Source: Halorussus vallis
GTDB lineage: Archaea > Halobacteriota > Halobacteria > Halobacteriales > Haladaptataceae
Length of the DNA stretch: 64,000 nucleotides
Assembly: GCF_024138165.1 (NCBI RefSeq)
Contig: NZ_CP100000.1
Location: 2,604,001 to 2,668,000, forward strand
Direction of reading: 5' to 3'
This document shows positions 4,843 to 63,710 of this stretch, piece after piece. The translations under genes were made by a program, and so were the position numbers. Within the stretch, counting starts at the first letter, position 1, and each line of letters opens with the position of its first letter. Under the pieces are notes generated by a model. It did no database searches, was not told the origin of the DNA, and worked only from the letters and a program-made list of their open reading frames with translations.

Positions 4843-5565
4843 TCAGGCCGCCATCGCGTCTTCGAGCGTGAACTCCCCCTCGTAGAGCGCGGTGCCGACG
4901 ACCACCGCGGCCGCGCCGGCCTCCCGGAGCGCCCGCACGTCGTCCAGCGTCGCGACGCCGCCCGAGGCGATTACCGGGATGTCGACCGCCTCGACCACCT
5001 CTCGCACGCGGTCCGTCTGGACGCCCTCTAACTTGCCCTCGACGTCCACGTCGGTGAACAGGATGGCGCCCGCGCCCAGGTCCTCGTAGCGCGCCGCCGC
5101 CTCCGCGGGGTCGAGGCCGGTCCCCTCGGTCCACCCGGCGACGACGACCTCGCCGTCCTTCGCGTCGAGACTCACGGTGACGGCGCCGGGATGGGACTCC
5201 GAGATTTCGGCGACGAGGTCGGGGTCCTCGACCGCGGCGGTGCCGAGGATGACGCGATCGACGCCCCGCTCCAGCAGGTCTATCGCGTCCTCCGCGGTCC
5301 GGATGCCCCCGCCGAGTTGCACGTCCACGGAGACGGCGTCGAGGATGCGCTCGACCGCGTCGGCGTTCGCTCGCTCGCCCTCGAACGCGCCGTCGAGGTC
5401 GACGAGGTGGAGCGTCTCTGCGCCCCGTTCGACCCACTGCTCGGCCGCTTCCACGGGGTCGCCGTAGGTCTTCTCGGTGCCGCGCTCGCCCTGGACCAAC
5501 TGGACGACCTCGCCGTCCTGCATGTCCACCGCCGGAATCACCTCGAACTCGGGGAAGGCAGTCAT
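4843..5565 (-). CDS. hisA: ProFAR isomerase HisA
   Basis: HisA is a 240-residue (beta/alpha)8 barrel that isomerises ProFAR to PRFAR in histidine biosynthesis. The first catalytic aspartate lies in IPAVDMQDG (Asp14) and the second in VSLDAKDGEV (about residue 133). Phosphate-binding glycines lie in LGGGIRTAEDA and near ASGGVATLDDV. Length is normal. It is followed at 78 nt by hisB, giving a small hisA-hisB cluster apart from the other his genes. Its upstream side faces a repeat-rich spacer of about 650 nt. Confidence 0.95.
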   Translation of the reverse strand: MTAFPEFEVIPAVDMQDGEVVQLVQGERGTEKTYGDPVEAAEQWVERGAETLHLVDLDGAFEGERANADAVERILDAVSVDVQLGGGIRTAEDAIDLLERGVDRVILGTAAVEDPDLVAEISESHPGAVTVSLDAKDGEVVVAGWTEGTGLDPAEAAARYEDLGAGAILFTDVDVEGKLEGVQTDRVREVVEAVDIPVIASGGVATLDDVRALREAGAAAVVVGTALYEGEFTLEDAMAA

Positions 5566-5724
5566 TGTCCGGTGGTATGTGTGGCGGGCGTTAAACGCTG
5601 ACTCTTCCGGCGATAGTGCGTGGTCGGGGACGAGGGGTGGGCGGATGATATCTGATGGGGCAAGATGTGGGTGAGCGTGTACGAAACTGGAGTGTCGAAG
5701 CAGCTAGCTACTCCCGATGACTAT

Positions 5725-5979
5725 GAGTAACCGCAGCCACATACCTCCCCAGCCGATTCCCTCGTTCGCTGGCGCTCACTCGGTCATCCCTCGCACGAAC
5801 GCGGCGCTCCGCGCCGCGTTTTCGCGCGCCGTAACCTGGGTCAGCTTCGCGCACTCTCACGTCTGGCGTGGCGCGTGCGGTCGCGGCCTCGTGCCGCGAC
5901 CAATCCGCGCGAGGGATGAGCGAACGCAGTGAGCGAATCGGCTGGGGAGGCGTGTGGCTGTGGCGGTGCGGTTATTCAT
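5725..5979. repeat. interspersed repeat family A, copy 1 (inverted-repeat element)
   Basis: This is the core of a 650-nt gene-free spacer (5566-6219). The ends are inverted: 16 nt at 5744-5759 (CCTCCCCAGCCGATTC) match the reverse complement of 5935-5950 exactly, and 11 nt at 5784-5794 match 5909-5919. Inside is a perfect 10-bp hairpin at 5798-5820 (AACGCGGCGC stem). The same blocks recur at 37541 and 57232 with different hairpin sequences at the same place. No coding pattern is convincing. The left part of the spacer (5566-5724) shows nothing recognisable. Confidence 0.75.
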
Positions 5980-5984
5980 TTGTA

Positions 5985-6092
5985 TCGTGCGAGCAGAACG
6001 CTTCACTCACCAAGCATACCCTTCGACGGAGTGCGAGCAGGACGCCTCACTCACCCAAAATTCTCCTTCGAGGGAGTGCGAGTAGAACGCTT
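5985..6092. repeat. family D short spaced repeats, three units
   Basis: Three copies of a motif close to TGCGAGCAGGACGCTTC start near 5988, 6032 and 6077, so the period is 44-45 bp. About 28 bp of dissimilar sequence separates them. The array directly abuts the right end of family A copy 1. A four-unit array with the same motif, reversed, abuts another A copy at 37379-37540. The repeats are too short and imperfect for CRISPR and no cas genes are present. Confidence 0.65.
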
Positions 6093-6219
6093 CGCGTCGT
6101 TCGTCTCCGGCTGTGGCTTTACGTCGCTCACTTCCAGGTCGTCACTTCCCGTCGTTCGATTCCTCCAATATCGCCGAGTCCCGACGTTTCAAGCCCCCGG
6201 CCCGCGAACCGGCCCACAC

Positions 6220-6858
6220 ATGACGCTGGTCGCGTTCGACTTCGACGGGACGCTCTCGGACTCGGAGATGACGGTCCTGCTCGGCGAGCGGATGGGAGTC
6301 GCCGACGAGATGGCCGACATCACCGAGCGAGCGATGAACGACGAGATTAGCTACGCCAAGAGCCTCCGCGACCGGGCGGCCCTGCTGAAGGGCCTCTCGG
6401 AGGAGGACGCCGAGGCGGCCTTCGACGACGTCTACCTCCGGACCGACGCCGGGACGCTCATCCGGGAACTCAACGAGGCGGGCGTGACCACCGCCGTCCT
6501 CACCGGCGGGTTCGAACGCGGCGTCGAGAAGGCGCTGGCGCGCGAGGGCGTCTCGGTCGACACCATCGTCGCCAACCGTCTGCCCATCGTAGACGGCGAA
6601 CTCACCGGCGAGGTCGAGGGGCCGCTCATCGAGGGCACCAAGGACGACGCGCTCGAACGCCTCGCGGCCGAGCGCGAGATAGACATCCGCGACACCGTCG
6701 CGGTCGGCGACGGCGCCAACGACCTCCCGATGCTCGAGATTGCCGGCCAGGCCATCGGCTTCGTCCCCAAGCCCGCGGTCCGGCCCGCCTGCGACCTGAC
6801 GGTTTCGACGATGGAGGAACTCAAGGACGTGTTCGAGGAGGACGGCCTGTTCGACTGA
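6220..6858 (+). CDS. serB: phosphoserine phosphatase SerB (HAD family)
   Basis: This 212-residue HAD-superfamily phosphatase probably converts phosphoserine to serine, the last step of serine synthesis. The catalytic loop FDFDGTLSDSE (Asp7, Asp9) is at the extreme N-terminus. The conserved lysine is near the GTKDDALE stretch (about 143-150) and the Mg2+ loop GDGANDLPML near 165-175. The reading frame is open upstream through repeat sequence, but the family always begins just before the DxDGT motif, so the ATG at 6220 is chosen. Related small HAD phosphatases cannot be fully excluded. Confidence 0.88.
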   Translation: MTLVAFDFDGTLSDSEMTVLLGERMGVADEMADITERAMNDEISYAKSLRDRAALLKGLSEEDAEAAFDDVYLRTDAGTLIRELNEAGVTTAVLTGGFERGVEKALAREGVSVDTIVANRLPIVDGELTGEVEGPLIEGTKDDALERLAAEREIDIRDTVAVGDGANDLPMLEIAGQAIGFVPKPAVRPACDLTVSTMEELKDVFEEDGLFD

Positions 6859-35204: not shown

Positions 35205-37265
35205 TCAGAACTCGCCTTTCGGCTCCGGTACGCCGCCTTCGACCTCCACGTCCACGTCGAACTCCTCGCGGAGTTCCCGGATGCGGTCGCGGATGTCGGC
35301 GGCCAGTTCGAACTCCAGGTTGCTCGCGGCCTCGTTCATCCGGTCTTCTAGGTCCTCGATGCGCCGGGCGGCCTCGTCGTCGGTTTCGGGTTCGCCGTCG
35401 GTCACGCCGGAGGTGTCGGTCTTGGACCCCGGCAGGTTGGCGTCCGAAACCTCCTTCTCGATGGTCGTGGCTTCGAAGCCGTGCTCCTCGTTGAACTGCT
35501 GTTGAATCTTCCGGCGGCGCTGGGTTTCGTCGATGGCGGCCTCCATCGCGTCGGTCATCTGGTCGGCGTACAGCACCACCTCGCCGTTGACGTTCCGGGC
35601 GGCCCGGCCCATCGTCTGGACCAGCGAGGTTTCCGAGCGCAGGAAGCCCTGCTGGTCGGCGTCGAGGATGGCCACGAGCGACACTTCGGGGATGTCCAGA
35701 CCCTCCCGGAGGAGGTTGATGCCCACCAGCACGTCGAACTCGCCCAGGCGCAGGCCCCGGACGAGTTCGTGGCGTTCGAGGGTGTCGGTCTCGTCGTGCA
35801 TGTACTCGACCGCGACGCCGGCCTCCTCGAGGTACTCGGTGAGGTCCTCGGCCATGCGCTTGGTGAGCGTCGTCACGAGCACGCGCTCGTCGTTCTCGGT
35901 TCGCTTGCTGATGCGGTCCATCAGGTCGTCGATCTGGCCCTGCGCGTCGGTGACCTCGACCTTCGGGTCGACGAGGTGGGTCGGCCGAACGATTTGCTCG
36001 ACGATCTGCTCGCTCTGTTCCTGCTCGTAGTCGGCGGGGGTCGCCGAGACGTACAGCGTCCGGTCGGTCTTCTCCTCGAACTCCTCGAAGGTGAGCGGGC
36101 GGTTGTCGTACGCCGTGGGGAGTCGGAAGCCGTTCTCGACCAGGCTGTCCTTGCGGGACTTGTCGCCCGCGAACTGGCCCTTGATCTGCGGGACGGTCTG
36201 GTGGGACTCGTCGATGACCGTGAGGAAGTCGTCGGGGAAGTAGTCGAGCAGGGTGTACGGCGCGTCGCCGACCTCCCTGTCGGAGAGGTACACCGAGTAG
36301 TTCTCGATGCCCGAACAGTAGCCGGCCTCGCGCATCATCTCTAGGTCGAAGGTGGTCCGCTCCTCGATGCGCTGGGCCGCCACGAGGTCGTTGTTCCGCT
36401 CGAAGTATCGGATGCGGTCGTCGAGGTCGTCCTTGATCTCGGCGATGGCGTCCTCCATGGTCTTCTCGGGGATGGAGTAGTGCTCCGCCGGGTGGACCAG
36501 CACCGCGGGTTCCTGGGAGACGACTTCGCCCTCCAGGGGGTCGACCTTCATCATGCGGTCGACCTCCTCGCCCCACAGTTCGACCCGTACCGCGTACCGG
36601 CCGTACATCGGGAAGATTTCGACCGTGTCGCCCCGCACGCGGAAGGTACCCTGCGTGAAGTCGACGTCGTTGCGCTCGTAGTTGAGGTCCACCAGTCGGG
36701 CGAGCAGTTCGTCCCGGCCGATGTCGTCGCCGACCTCCAGGCGGAGGCTCATCTCCTCGTAGTTCCGCGGGTCACCGAGGCCGTAGATCGCGGAAACCGA
36801 CGCGACCACGATGACGTCGTCGCGGGTGAGCAGCGACCGGGTCGCGGAGTGGCGCAGGCGGTCGATCTCGTCGTTGATGGACGCGTCCTTCTCGATGTAC
36901 TTGTCCGTCTGCTCGACGTACGCCTCCGGTTGGTAGTAGTCGTAGTAGGAGACGAAGTACTCGACGGCGTTGTCCGGAAAGAGGTTGCGGAACTCCTCGT
37001 ACAATTGGGCGGCGAGGGTCTTGTTGTGGGCGATGACCAGCGTGGGCATCTCTATCTCCTCGACCACCCACGAGACGGTGTTGGTCTTGCCCGACCCCGT
37101 CACGCCCAGCAGGGTCTGTTTGTCCATTCCAGACCGGAACCCTTCGGCCAACTGCTCGATGGCCTCGGGCTGGTCGCCCGCGGGGTCGAAGGGCGCGTCG
37201 ACCCGGAAGTCGCTTTCGGCGTCGGGTTGGTCGGGCGAGAGGGGACCGGAGTCGGCGTCGCTCAT
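35205..37265 (-). CDS. uvrB: excinuclease ABC subunit B
   Basis: UvrB verifies DNA damage and recruits UvrC. The 686-residue helicase-like protein carries Walker [11 protein letters not shown] (about 54-63), the beta-hairpin region ([11 protein letters not shown]), the DEAD-type motif IDESHQ, motif VI near [12 protein letters not shown] and a C-terminal UVR domain ([20 protein letters not shown]) for UvrC contact. Length is normal. uvrC lies 4-8 kb away on the other strand. A repeat-filled spacer of 640 nt lies upstream. Confidence 0.96.
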
Positions 37266-37378: not shown

Positions 37379-37540
37379 ACGAAGCATCCTGCTCGTACTC
37401 CGCAATCGAATGGTGTCTTTGCGAGTCGGGCGTCCTGCTCGCACTCCGCAGAGACGTGTTCTTTCCTCAATCGAAGCGTCCTGCTCGTAGTCTATGGTTG
37501 ATGGTGTTTATGCGGTGAAGCGTCCTGCTCGCACGATGCA
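37379..37540. repeat. family D short spaced repeats, four units
   Basis: On the minus strand, TRCGAGCAGGAYGCTTC-like motifs occur four times; the shared 9-mer TCCTGCTCG on the plus strand begins at 37387, 37433, 37479 and 37523. The spacing is 46, 46 and 44 bp with unrelated 28-30 bp between. The array abuts family A copy 2, the same order as D next to A at 5.7-6.1 kb. The remaining 37266-37378 shows nothing clear. Confidence 0.65.
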
Positions 37541-37650
37541 AATGAGTAACCGCAACCACATCCTCCCCAACCGACTCCTTCGTGCCCTGCGGGCACTCAG
37601 TCGTCCCTCGCGCGGTCGCACCCTGCCGGGTGCGACTTCGCGCGCCGGGG
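37541..37650. repeat. family A repeat, copy 2 (half element)
   Basis: It starts with GAGTAACCGCAACCACATCC and continues with CTCCCCAACCGACTCC and TCGTCCCTCGCGCG, shared with copies at 5725 and 57232. Two hairpins occupy the same places as in the other copies but have different sequence: a 6-bp stem at 37582-37596 (GTGCCC) and a 9-bp stem at 37615-37636 (GTCGCACCC). The right-hand inverted half is missing. Confidence 0.65.
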
Positions 37651-37755
37651 AACCGGTGAAAATAGCGCGAGGTAGTGTTTTCGAATTGGCGTGCGCTGGC
37701 AGAGTGCAGTGGCGGTTTGCAGGGCGCGAAGCGCCCGCACCAGTTCTCCGAAGAT

Positions 37756-37796
37756 GCGAACGAGATGACCGCGCGCTGCGCGGTCATCTCGTTCGC
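37756..37796. repeat. 19-bp perfect inverted repeat
   Basis: The arm at 37756-37774 (GCGAACGAGATGACCGCGC) pairs exactly with 37778-37796 around GCT. It lies at the left edge of family C copy 1. The equivalent place in copy 2 (near 39320-39345) holds the unrelated but short GAGCGAACGAAGTGAGCG phrase. Confidence 0.65.
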
Positions 37797-37798
37797 GT

Positions 37799-37904
37799 GC
37801 CCTTTTTTGGTCCAGATTTTTTCGAGGAGTGGTTGCCGGACAGACCTCCGGCCTGTCCGGCGACCCGACGAAGAAAAAAGGTGGGAACGAAAGGTGGGGG
37901 TCGG
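37799..37904 (-). terminator. family C repeat, copy 1, ending at a gene's 3' end
   Basis: On the minus strand, directly after the stop of the 37906-38976 gene, come a conserved block with CACCTTTTTTCTTCGTCGG, then a 9-bp hairpin (37835-37861, GCCGGACAG arm), then an A-rich block. On the plus strand the latter is CCTTTTTTGG and ATTTTTT. The same blocks abut the stop of the gene at 39501. The T-runs make termination on one or both strands plausible. Confidence 0.55.
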
Positions 37905-42414: not shown

Positions 42415-45078
42415 TCAGTCGTCGAAGTTCGTGAATTCGAAGCGCGCGCCGCCCGTCTCGCTCTCGGTCACCCGACAGTCCCACTCGTACACCTCGGCCA
42501 ACTGCTGGACGAACGCCAGTCCGAGACCGGTCCCGCCTTCCTCGGCGGCGGTCGTGTAGCCCGCCTCGAAGACGGTTTTCCGGTCGTTTTTCGGGATGCC
42601 AGGACCGTCGTCGGCCACGTAGAAGCCGTTCGGTAAGTCGCCGACCGTGACGGTGACGTCCGACCCGCCGTGTTCGACCGCGTTCTCGAAGAGGTTGCGG
42701 AAGAGGTGGCGGATGTACGTCTCGTCGGCCTGTCTCGTGGTATCGAGCGCGACGTCCAGGGTCGCCTCGGGCGTCTCCACTTCTCCCCACGCCTGCGCGG
42801 CCACGTCCGCGAGTCGGACCGCGCTCCCCTCCTCGACCGCCTCCTGACCCCGGGCCAGCACCAGCAGGACGTCGATCATGTCCTCGATGCGGTCGAACGC
42901 CTCGGTGACGTACTCGACCGCGTCGGGGGCCGCCTCGGCCGGGAGTTGGCTCCCGTATATCTGGCCGATGGTGACGGGGTTGCGGAGTTCGTGGGCCAGC
43001 ATGCTCGCGAAACTGTCCAGGCGGTCCTTCTGGCGCTGGAGGCGGCGCTCGCGGTCGGTCCGCTTGAGCGCGGCCTCCGCGGTGGCCGCGACGAGTTCGA
43101 CGAGGCTCTCCATGTTCTCGTCGAACGTCCCCTGGTCGGCCGCCTCGACCGCGAGCGCGCCGTACTCACCCAACGGCACTACCATCGTCCGGCGCTCGCC
43201 GGTTTCGTCGGCGTCGTCGGTCGGGGCGGCCCCCTCGAACAGCGTCACGCCGTCGGCGATGCTCCGCCGGATTTTCTCGTCGTCCTCGGCGGTGAGCGAC
43301 CTCGCCCGCTCCGTCGTCGATTCGGCGCCGCGCGACGAACTCATCAGTTCGAGCACGTCCTCGTCGGCGTCGTAGGAGTAGACGACCGCGTCGGCCAGCG
43401 CGATGTCGTCCGTGAGCGTCTCGACGATGATATCGCCGATCTCCTCGCGGGTTTCCGTCTGGAGCAGTCCGCGGGTCGACTCCTGGAGCGCGGTGAGCGT
43501 CTGTTCGCGTTCCTTGCGCCTGATAGCCGCTATCGCGTGACTGATGGTTTCGCCCAGTTCGCTCATCACGGCTATCTTGCGCTCGTCGAAGGCCGACTCG
43601 TGCTCGGCGTACACGGTCAGGACGCCGTACTCGACCTCGTTGTACCGGAGCGGAACCGTTATCGCCGACTCGTAGCCCGCCGTGAGCGAGGCGTCCCGCC
43701 ACGGTTCGCCCGCGGGGTCGTTTCGCAGATATTGGACGGGCTGGACCTCCCGGGTCCGGAGCGCGGTCGCCCCGACGCCCTTCTCCGTCCGCTCGGCGAT
43801 CTCGGCGTCCGTGGTCCGAATCGCGTCCAGGTACTCGTCGCTGACCCCGGCCCACGCTCGGGGCGTGATCGTCTCGTAGTCCTCGGTGTACTCGGCGGTC
43901 CACGCCGCGGAGTACGTGTTCGACGCCGCCAACCGGTCGCACACCTCCTGTTCTATCTCCTCGCGCGACGTCGCCGTGACGAGCGCCTGGTCGATGTCCC
44001 GGATGACCGCGTTTATCTGGTTGAGTTCGTCCAACTCGTCGCGCTGACTGCGGAGTCGTTGCTCGTACAGGTGGCGCTCGGTCATGTCCCGGGTGACCTT
44101 CGCGAAGCCCCGCAGGTTCCCGTCGTCGTCGTGGAGGGCCGTGATGGTGACGTTGGCCCAGAACGTCCCGCCGCCCTTCTGGACGCGCTTGCCTTCGTCT
44201 TCGACCCGTCCGTTCTCGACGGCCTTCTCGAGGTTCCGCTCGGGGACGCCGTTCTCGCGGGCCTCGTCGGTGTAGAACGTCGAGAAGTGTTCGCCGACGA
44301 TCTCGTCCTCCTCGTAGCCCTTCAACTGCTCGGCGCCACGGTTCCAGGTCTGGACGATTCCGTCGGAGTCCAGCAGGAAGATAGCGTAGTCCTTGACCTC
44401 CCGAACGAGCGTCTCGAACCGCCTTTTCTGCTCGCGGAGTCGCTGTTCGTACTCGTGGCGCTCGGTCATGTCCCGGGTGACCTTGACGAACCCGCGGAGT
44501 TCACCGTCGTCGTCTCGGACCGACGTTATCGTCACGCTGGCCCAGAACCGCTCGCCGTCGTTCCTGAGCCGCCACCCCTTGTCCTCGGTGCGTCCGTCCT
44601 CCCTGGCCCTCGCGAGATTTCGCTCGGGGATGCCGTTCTCGCGGTCCTCGTCGGTGTAGAACGTCGAGAAGTGCTCGCCGATGATCTCGTCTTCCTCGTA
44701 ACCCTTCAACTGCTCGGCGCCACGGTTCCAGGTCTGGACGATTCCGTCGGGGTCGAGCACGAAGATGGCGTAGTCGGTGACCGACTGGACGAGTTCGCGA
44801 AACTGCGCCTGTTCGAGCGTCGACTCCGTGCCCGACTGAGCGGCCGACCCCCTGTCTGGCGGCCGCCACCAGAGTCGCCGGTCCGAACCGACCTCCCTGG
44901 TTTCCAGTTCACCACACTCGACCAACGCTTCGAGTCGCTCGGCGGTCGCATGCTCCGTACGGTCCAACGCGTCAGCGACCTCGCCCGTCGTGAGTGGTCG
45001 CCCGGGCGAATCGCCCCGGGTGAACACGTCGAGCGTGTCGTCGGGCGTGCGTCGTGACGGAGGCCCGGACGTTCCCAT
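42415..45078 (-). CDS. multidomain sensor histidine kinase (wHTH-PAS-PAS-GAF-GAF-HisKA-HATPase)
   Basis: This 887-residue cytoplasmic sensor has no TM segment. The N-terminal ~80 residues look like a winged helix (TTGEVADALDRTEHATAERL). Two PAS domains follow (about 95-200 and 225-330), then two GAF-like modules (about 345-490 and 500-640). Next come a HisKA domain with the phosphorylated His696 (MLAHELRNPV) and an ATPase domain with ENAVEHGGSD and a GTGLGL box. The two PAS domains are almost identical, even in DNA, so they arose by a recent internal duplication. A TATAAAT element 27 nt before the ATG (45102-45108) fixes the start. No response regulator is adjacent. Confidence 0.88.
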   Translation of the reverse strand: MGTSGPPSRRTPDDTLDVFTRGDSPGRPLTTGEVADALDRTEHATAERLEALVECGELETREVGSDRRLWWRPPDRGSAAQSGTESTLEQAQFRELVQSVTDYAIFVLDPDGIVQTWNRGAEQLKGYEEDEIIGEHFSTFYTDEDRENGIPERNLARAREDGRTEDKGWRLRNDGERFWASVTITSVRDDDGELRGFVKVTRDMTERHEYEQRLREQKRRFETLVREVKDYAIFLLDSDGIVQTWNRGAEQLKGYEEDEIVGEHFSTFYTDEARENGVPERNLEKAVENGRVEDEGKRVQKGGGTFWANVTITALHDDDGNLRGFAKVTRDMTERHLYEQRLRSQRDELDELNQINAVIRDIDQALVTATSREEIEQEVCDRLAASNTYSAAWTAEYTEDYETITPRAWAGVSDEYLDAIRTTDAEIAERTEKGVGATALRTREVQPVQYLRNDPAGEPWRDASLTAGYESAITVPLRYNEVEYGVLTVYAEHESAFDERKIAVMSELGETISHAIAAIRRKEREQTLTALQESTRGLLQTETREEIGDIIVETLTDDIALADAVVYSYDADEDVLELMSSSRGAESTTERARSLTAEDDEKIRRSIADGVTLFEGAAPTDDADETGERRTMVVPLGEYGALAVEAADQGTFDENMESLVELVAATAEAALKRTDRERRLQRQKDRLDSFASMLAHELRNPVTIGQIYGSQLPAEAAPDAVEYVTEAFDRIEDMIDVLLVLARGQEAVEEGSAVRLADVAAQAWGEVETPEATLDVALDTTRQADETYIRHLFRNLFENAVEHGGSDVTVTVGDLPNGFYVADDGPGIPKNDRKTVFEAGYTTAAEEGGTGLGLAFVQQLAEVYEWDCRVTESETGGARFEFTNFDD

Positions 45079-57002: not shown

Positions 57003-57105
57003 TGCACCGAGGTAGCGCTTCTTCGGGTTTGAACGTTTGGATGGCGCGGTGGAAGTGAAGGTGAGCGTCTCTAAACGCAACGACCAGCGGAACTGTGACC
57101 GCCCA

Positions 57106-57231
57106 GAAAGCCCCCGGGCGCTCGCGGTCGCTGGCCGGGATATGCGGTTCGCGCCTGCGGCGCTCACCGAATAGTGGCCCGTCCAGACGACCTAGCCCTT
57201 CGGGCGCGAGTACCCGGCCCCTTTCAGTCCC
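57106..57231 (+). repeat. family B repeat, copy 2
   Basis: It has ends GAAAGCCCCCGGG and CCGGCCCCTTTCAGTCCC, as in copy 1. The outer stem CGGGCGCTCGCG can pair with CGCGAGTACCCG with two mismatches. It is immediately followed by family A copy 3. The gap 57003-57105 before it shows nothing distinct. Confidence 0.7.
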
Positions 57232-57492
57232 ACCCGAACCGCACCGCGCCACACCCTCCCCAGCCGACTCCCTCACGCCTGCGGCGTTCAGTCGTCCCTC
57301 GCGCGGCTTGGTCGCGGCACGGGGCCGCGACCCCGCGCGCCACGCCGGCTGTGGAGATGCGCGAGATAGTCTCCCGGTCACGGCGCGCGCTGGCGCGACC
57401 TCGTGTCGCGCCGTCCTCGTGCGAGGGATGAGCGAACGGAGTGAGCGAATCGGCTGGGGAGGGCGTGGCGTGCGGTCGCGGTGTTGCCTGGC
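57232..57492. repeat. family A repeat, copy 3 (inverted halves)
   Basis: The left half carries CCTCCCCAGCCGACTCCCTC and TCGTCCCTCGCGCG; the right half carries GCGAGGGATGAGCGAACGGA and GAATCGGCTGGGGAGG in inverse. Variable stems: 5 bp at 57275-57287 (ACGCC), 9 bp at 57310-57332 (GGTCGCGGC), 8 bp at 57392-57412 (GGCGCGAC). Compared with copies 1 and 2 the stem sequences differ but still pair. Confidence 0.72.
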
Positions 57493-57609
57493 GGACTGAA
57501 AGGGCGAGTGCGTCTCGGCGAAGCACGGCGACGTAAGCACCACAGGCCGTGCCGAGGGCACGGCCGAGGAGCGCAGCGAGCCGCGCGAGTCGAGCGCACG
57601 AGGGCTTTC
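57493..57609 (-). repeat. family B repeat, copy 3 (reverse orientation)
   Basis: Read on the minus strand it begins GAAAGCCCTCGTGCGCTCG, contains GCGCGGCTCGCTGCGCTCC and the hairpin CCGTGCC-CTC-GGCACGG, and ends GCCCTTTCAGTCC. Blocks match copy 1 at 40258; stems differ. With copies B2 and A3 it makes a ~500-bp symmetrical element. The rest of the spacer (57610-57722) is featureless. Confidence 0.7.
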
Positions 57610-57722
57610 TGGCGGTTCACGTTCTCCCGTCGGTATCTGAACGTCTCGGTTGCAGCGCTTGCTGACTCAACCGTCTGGTATCGATGAGAAGCATTACCCG
57701 CGACCAAACACAACTCACGTCC

Positions 57723-60369: not shown

Positions 60370-60419
60370 CGACGTTTTGCAAGGGAGGCGCGGTACCGCG
60401 CCTCCCTTGCAAAACGTCG
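60370..60419. repeat. perfect 50-bp palindrome
   Basis: Twenty-five bases at 60370-60394 (starting CGACGTTTTGCAAGGGAGGC) are exactly repeated in inverse at 60395-60419, with GGTACC at the centre and no spacer. It lies between two divergently transcribed genes. The adjoining sequence contains CTCGCTCACTTCGTTCGCTC, a phrase that also occurs near the other repeats. Confidence 0.75.
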
Positions 60420-63597: not shown

Positions 63598-63710
63598 CGG
63601 GCCGGGAGGGATTTGAACCCCCGGCCGTCTGGTGTCTTCCACAACCACCCGAAACGGTGCGAGTAGTCGTGCTAAAAGCCAGACGCTCTGCCTAACTGAG
63701 CTACCGGCCC
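63598..63710 (-). tRNA. tRNA-Lys(UUU) with intron
   Basis: The exons give a 7-bp acceptor stem (GGGCCGG/CCGGCCC) with discriminator G, a D arm (AGCTC...GAGC), an anticodon stem TCTGG/CCAGA with loop CTTTTAA and a T arm with TTCAAAT. The anticodon is UUU. A 39-nt intron lies at the canonical site between positions 37 and 38. It folds into a bulge-helix-bulge: CTTT pairs with GAAG, and CACGAC in the intron pairs with GTTGTG, with two 3-nt bulges. CCA is not encoded. Confidence 0.9.

Follow-up and report, generated by a model that had tools for sequence, protein, structure and literature searches.

A regularly spaced motif array at the end of a palindromic intergenic repeat of Halorussus: probably a degenerate minisatellite

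Described repeat systems and how the locus compares

CRISPR arrays are built of near-identical repeats of ~21–50 bp and unique, non-homologous spacers that match viruses or plasmids, with cas genes nearby. In Haloquadratum walsbyi, the small mobile repeats (SMRs) carry terminal inverted repeats and no transposase, and their mode of mobilization is unknown; one of them, SMR-A, is ~110 bp long and inserts into IS605/PATE palindromes (PMC3119063). Bacterial REPs measure 20–40 bp and show a correlation between their spread and a RAYT (IS200/IS605-type) transposase; the BIMEs, regularly spaced palindromes that bind proteins, are also linked to RAYT transposases (PMC2817692).

Here, we describe a motif array and the palindromic repeat that it adjoins (family A) in a 64,000-nt stretch, the window, of the 5.05-Mb genome of Halorussus vallis. 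Like the SMRs, family A is haloarchaeal, non-coding and multi-copy, with terminal inverted repeats and no known transposon; judged by description only, it differs from them in the ~170–320 bp between its arms, its intergenic position and the tandem arrays at its end (PMC3119063). It shares with REPs and BIMEs the form of intergenic palindromes in dozens of copies, a mosaic build, regular units and, in the relative G001, head-to-head elements ~40 bp apart. However, the counts of Y1 transposases do not follow the copy number of family A: G001 combines at least 40 A-array query matches with the absence of any Y1 gene, and genome G012 has seven Y1 matches and three to the A-array query. For this reason, we rejected an IS200/IS605 or RAYT element as the driver.

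Family A also resembles MITEs, being short, palindromic, present in many copies and bounded by terminal inverted boxes, but no parent transposon sharing its ends was found. Compared with empty sites, the flanks of A elements are too diverged for the junctions, or a target-site duplication, to be defined, and loss of the element from such sites is possible. The array itself recalls CRISPR and TIGR arrays in its short repeat and regular interval, but differs from them in its degenerate repeat, its homologous intervals, the lack of a protospacer match and the lack of any effector gene found nearby. Its decaying head-to-tail units of tens of bp resemble a bacterial or archaeal minisatellite (VNTR); on the other hand, the same unit family occurs at 12 places, always beside the same palindromic element. 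A literature search, with subscription journals mostly outside its coverage, found no paper on Halorussus family A.

The array and family A in the window

Three copies of a 17-bp motif resembling TGCGAGCAGGACGCTTC lie on the plus strand at 5988–6004 (1 mismatch), 6032–6048 (1) and 6077–6093 (2), between hisA (4843–5565, minus strand) and serB (6220–6858, plus strand). Their starts are 44 and then 45 bp apart, as the first-pass annotation had described. The first unit, TCG-TGCGAGCAGAACGCTTC (5985–6004, plus strand), forms the terminal box at the right end of a family A element and belongs to a type that we call E1; the cores of the second and third units read TGCGAGCAGGACGCCTC and TGCGAGTAGAACGCTTC. 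Allowing up to three mismatches, the motif has seven matches in the window against 0.47 expected, a number that none of 100 shuffles reached, which excludes chance. The same annotation had called the intervening sequence unlike, and here we observed the opposite: homology is plain between the two intervals, ACTCACCAAGCATACCCTTCGACGGAG and ACTCACCCAAAATTCTCCTTCGAGGGAG, and Tandem Repeats Finder takes 5987–6090, intervals included, as a single tandem repeat (period 44, 2.3 copies, 83% matches). The locus therefore consists of adjoining head-to-tail copies of one unit, which is what defines a minisatellite.

The family A element next to the array (5718–5984) is an imperfect inverted repeat of ~267 bp with inner hairpins and the arms CCTCCCCAGCCGA and TCGGCTGGGGAGG. 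The 33-nt arms at 5731–5763 and 5931–5963 are 88% complementary, and its single-strand fold reaches −96.6 kcal/mol (z −10.7 against shuffles). The right end, GCGGTTATTCATTTGTATCG, runs straight into the first motif copy, in agreement with the earlier remark that the array directly abuts the element. The left terminal box (5697–5727, GAAGCAGCTAGCTACTCCCGATGACTATGAG) is of another type, E3, which is found at the ends of other copies and, in two relatives, also between hisA and serB.

A second array, of four units spaced 44, 46 and 46 bp apart (37381–37533, minus strand), lies ~116 bp upstream of uvrB (35205–37265, minus strand) and is joined to a family A half-element at 37540–37650. NCBIfam models support the identities of hisA, serB and uvrB. 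In both window arrays, the outer end lies 116–127 bp upstream of a start codon. The window holds one more family A element (57247–57470), the third, which carries no E1 array.

Several other features were seen in the window. Beside the second A half-element, the region 37700–37890 holds a 19-bp perfect hairpin (37756–37796), a longer imperfect one and a motif, (TG)CCCTTTTTTGGTCCAG, that recurs by other A elements of the genome; it represents another non-coding repeat family linked to A. On both sides of the third A element, at 57090–57240 and 57490–57610, lies the module GGAYTGAAAGGGGCCG...CTCGCG, present at ~10 A ends genome-wide. A perfect 50-bp palindrome of two 25-nt arms without a gap (CGACGTTTTGCAAGGGAGGCGCGGT/ACCGCGCCTCCCTTGCAAAACGTCG) occupies 60370–60419, ~40 bp away from where a gene probably starts. 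At 44050–44782, there is a 384-bp tandem duplication of 83% identity, probably repeated domains within one protein. Rfam detected a 113-nt tRNA at 63598–63710, missed by ARAGORN and probably intron-containing; this was its only RNA family in the window, with nothing at the array.

Distribution and unit structure in the source genome and its relatives

The family A arm CGGYTGGGGAGG has 117 exact matches in the source genome, compared with 11 for the reversed control. With its many intergenic copies and strong inverted repeat, family A is an intergenic palindromic repeat of the REP/SMR-like kind. We catalogued 112 half-ends, a partial catalogue drawn from searches and sequence stretches that includes a few chance matches. 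Their outer boxes are of types E1 (GTGCGAGCAGGACGCTTC), E2 (GTGCGAGTAGCGGTC), E3 (AGCTAGC) and others, with E2 in the majority (60 of the 112). Only E1 forms regular arrays; repeated E2 boxes are few and irregularly spaced and serve as an internal control.

The first-pass annotation had suggested a genome-wide search, and held that a lack of further arrays, or random spacing in them, would refute its observation. With a weight matrix, we identified 12 arrays of more than one unit in the source genome, with spacings of 43; 46 and 45; 44; 45; 43 and 45; 44; 44 and 45; 44, 46 and 46; 67, 44 and 44; 68; 44; and 45, 45 and 54 bp. Thus, 18 of the 21 spacings fall within 43–46 bp, a regularity well beyond chance, the other three being 54, 67 and 68, and the arrays are neither solitary nor randomly spaced in this genome; in a relative, the spacings vary from array to array. 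When each locus contributes a single spacing, 10 of the 12 lie within 43–46 bp (binomial P ~5e-13 if spacings were uniform over 17–119 bp), a value that is indicative only, since units of the same arrays that the matrix later scored had served to seed it. All 12 arrays begin at an A-type end, where a version of ACTCATTTGnATCG precedes the first unit. Relative to the next gene, as called by a simple codon model, seven arrays lie 5' and five lie 3'; with no consistent gene orientation, the arrays as a class were rejected as promoter elements.

The 17-bp core is 0.81 identical within arrays and 0.80 between them, whereas the aligned intervals are 0.65 identical within arrays, 0.56 between them and 0.50 when shuffled. 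The intervals are thus alike genome-wide, weakly but significantly; their positional information exceeds that of all 1000 shuffles, with the weak consensus GTTCGACnAAAAA...GCGGAG. These results indicate that the unit is ~45 bp long, with a core that is firmly conserved and an A-rich linker that is only loosely so. The core holds a small dyad, GCG-N7-CGC. Furthermore, in nearly all arrays the second copy is poorer than the A-adjacent one, the sequence decaying outward from the palindrome: under the same seeded matrix, the first unit scored 25.6 bits and the second 21.0 (Wilcoxon P 0.001), and they carried 1.7 and 2.8 mismatches, respectively (Wilcoxon P 0.008). The better-kept A-adjacent box is more in keeping with a tandem repeat that decays outward than with a row of equivalent binding sites.

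Searching 18 Halorussus genomes, the source genome included, we found matches to the A-array query in 15, from 2 to at least ~40 per genome. The 17-bp motif is concentrated in the source genome and G001, with 0–2 copies in the others among 242 haloarchaea, and in relatives, too, A elements end in this box, next to the palindrome. In G001, this A-adjacent box is mostly unchanged, but the periods are specific to each array: 38, 39 and 39 bp at one locus (L255) and about 22–58 bp elsewhere. The A elements of G001 often stand in facing pairs (L100, L107–L110, L252 and L256), with their E1 boxes ~23–49 bp apart; no such head-to-head pairs occur among the source-genome elements examined. No arrays were found in 27 other genomes of the family, and a search of GTDB genomes gave 50 hits, every one of them in an unrelated bacterium; their spacings were scattered, with 8 of the 50 at 43–46 bp, and we read them as chance.

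At the hisA–serB locus, an A element is present in 3 of the 18 genomes (source, G001 and G006), with differing outer modules, and none was seen in the rest. At the uvrB side, neither an A element nor an array was seen in 15 relatives. Where the flanks of A sites match between species, the terminal module is E1 in G001 or G006 and E2 in the source genome. From this occupancy and these module differences, it appears that some A sites are old and others specific to the source genome, and that the outer modules turn over. At the hisA–serB locus of G006 (L152; H. halophilus), the position of the array is taken by another short repeat, AGTGCTGTTCTCGAACT, present twice ~39 bp apart. A plasmid match at 114989–115047 of H. 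halophilus falls on the same place as a same-genus hit in G006 (C2, 114989–115029), in line with the Halorussus origin of the window.

Origin and possible role of the array

Among the terminal boxes of family A is the 17-bp core, and the core and its A-rich interval are repeated in tandem at 12 A ends with a period of mostly 43–46 bp. We think it more likely than not that the array is a degenerate minisatellite, borne at its outer end by a palindromic, non-coding repeat that lies between genes of Halorussus. The box and ~28 bp of neighbouring sequence would have undergone duplication, with replication slippage, or repair at the strong hairpin that A can form, as the probable mechanism; a version with the ~45-bp unit may then have been copied onto several A ends in the lineage, its distal units decaying. 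The terminal box, in turn, might be kept by concerted evolution, with elements copying their ends from one another, or through recognition by a factor that moves or processes the element. In favour of the minisatellite, we count the conservation of the first unit, the tandem-repeat call that includes the intervals, the strong hairpin and the module differences between species. The locus-specific periods of G001 beside a mostly unchanged box would follow if each A end gained its tandem duplications independently.

Could the array instead be a row of sites for a DNA-binding protein? The uniform 43–46-bp period at most of the 12 loci, combined with far-diverged intervals, could mean that the spacing is selected, and a neutral repeat should not hold its core at 80% between arrays while its intervals are near random, unless the ends are homogenized. 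It also counts against the minisatellite that the observations made include neither an intermediate duplication event nor strain polymorphism. The core might be the site of a nucleoid protein, a recombinase or a transposase of the A element, with the ~45-bp spacing and the A-rich stretch serving assembly or bending. Consistent with this, the core is conserved far better than the intervals and contains the small dyad, the same box stands next to A across species, and the BIMEs of E. coli offer a precedent of protein-binding intergenic repeats (PMC2817692). However, the distal units decay, relatives have the box without the spacing, most A ends of the source genome bear E2 and no regular array, and there is no fixed relation to promoters; moreover, the spacings of 54, 67 and 68 bp are out of phase with 44 at 10.5 bp per turn. 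As neither 44–46 nor 67–68 bp fits that pitch, we make no claim of helical phasing. The conserved core and narrow spacing range thus leave room for a candidate protein-binding role, which we regard as possible, though clearly the less probable reading. Somewhat more speculatively still, the arrays may be assembly platforms for a putative haloarchaeal protein that recognizes the A terminal box and needs ~45 bp from one site to the next, or four turns of ~11 bp each; such a protein could be a factor that copies A ends or organizes the chromosome at A hairpins.

The position of both window arrays shortly upstream of a start codon would suit activator or repressor sites of the neighbouring gene, serB at the first locus and uvrB at the second. 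This seems unlikely, as 5 of the 12 arrays lie at gene 3' ends, the uvrB locus lacks element and array in the 15 relatives, and the flanking genes share no evident pathway. A guide-RNA array with acquired spacers, whether CRISPR, TIGR-like or other, would likewise show a repeat and a variable interval of regular length, but it is highly improbable here: the intervals are mutually homologous and the repeat degenerate (core 80% identical), and the intervals match nothing significantly among records of phages or plasmids, and nothing exactly in viral contigs. Furthermore, none of the eight array-neighbour proteins scanned with PADLOC is a defence gene (the scan, covering cas genes as well, gave only helicase-domain cross matches of UvrB), and the folding of the array RNA is no better than that of shuffles (z −1.3 to +0.2). 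We therefore rejected a guide array, and the comparison with plasmids and viruses proposed in the first-pass annotation turned up no source for the intervals, while its judgement that the array is not CRISPR stands. Short repeats are many in a GC-rich genome, but chance is hardly credible when shuffles fall short and 12 loci agree, and coding periodicity is no better, as the spacing is mostly no multiple of three and the array is intergenic.

The preferred reading, a decayed minisatellite at the end of family A, carries a warning: short, regularly spaced motifs with seemingly variable intervals can be decayed tandem repeats. An odd-looking motif array thereby finds its place in an intergenic repeat family of Halorussus that is definable and high in copy number. 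Family A makes testable both the spread of transposase-free repeats in haloarchaea and the idea that strong hairpins act as seeds of adjacent tandem duplications.
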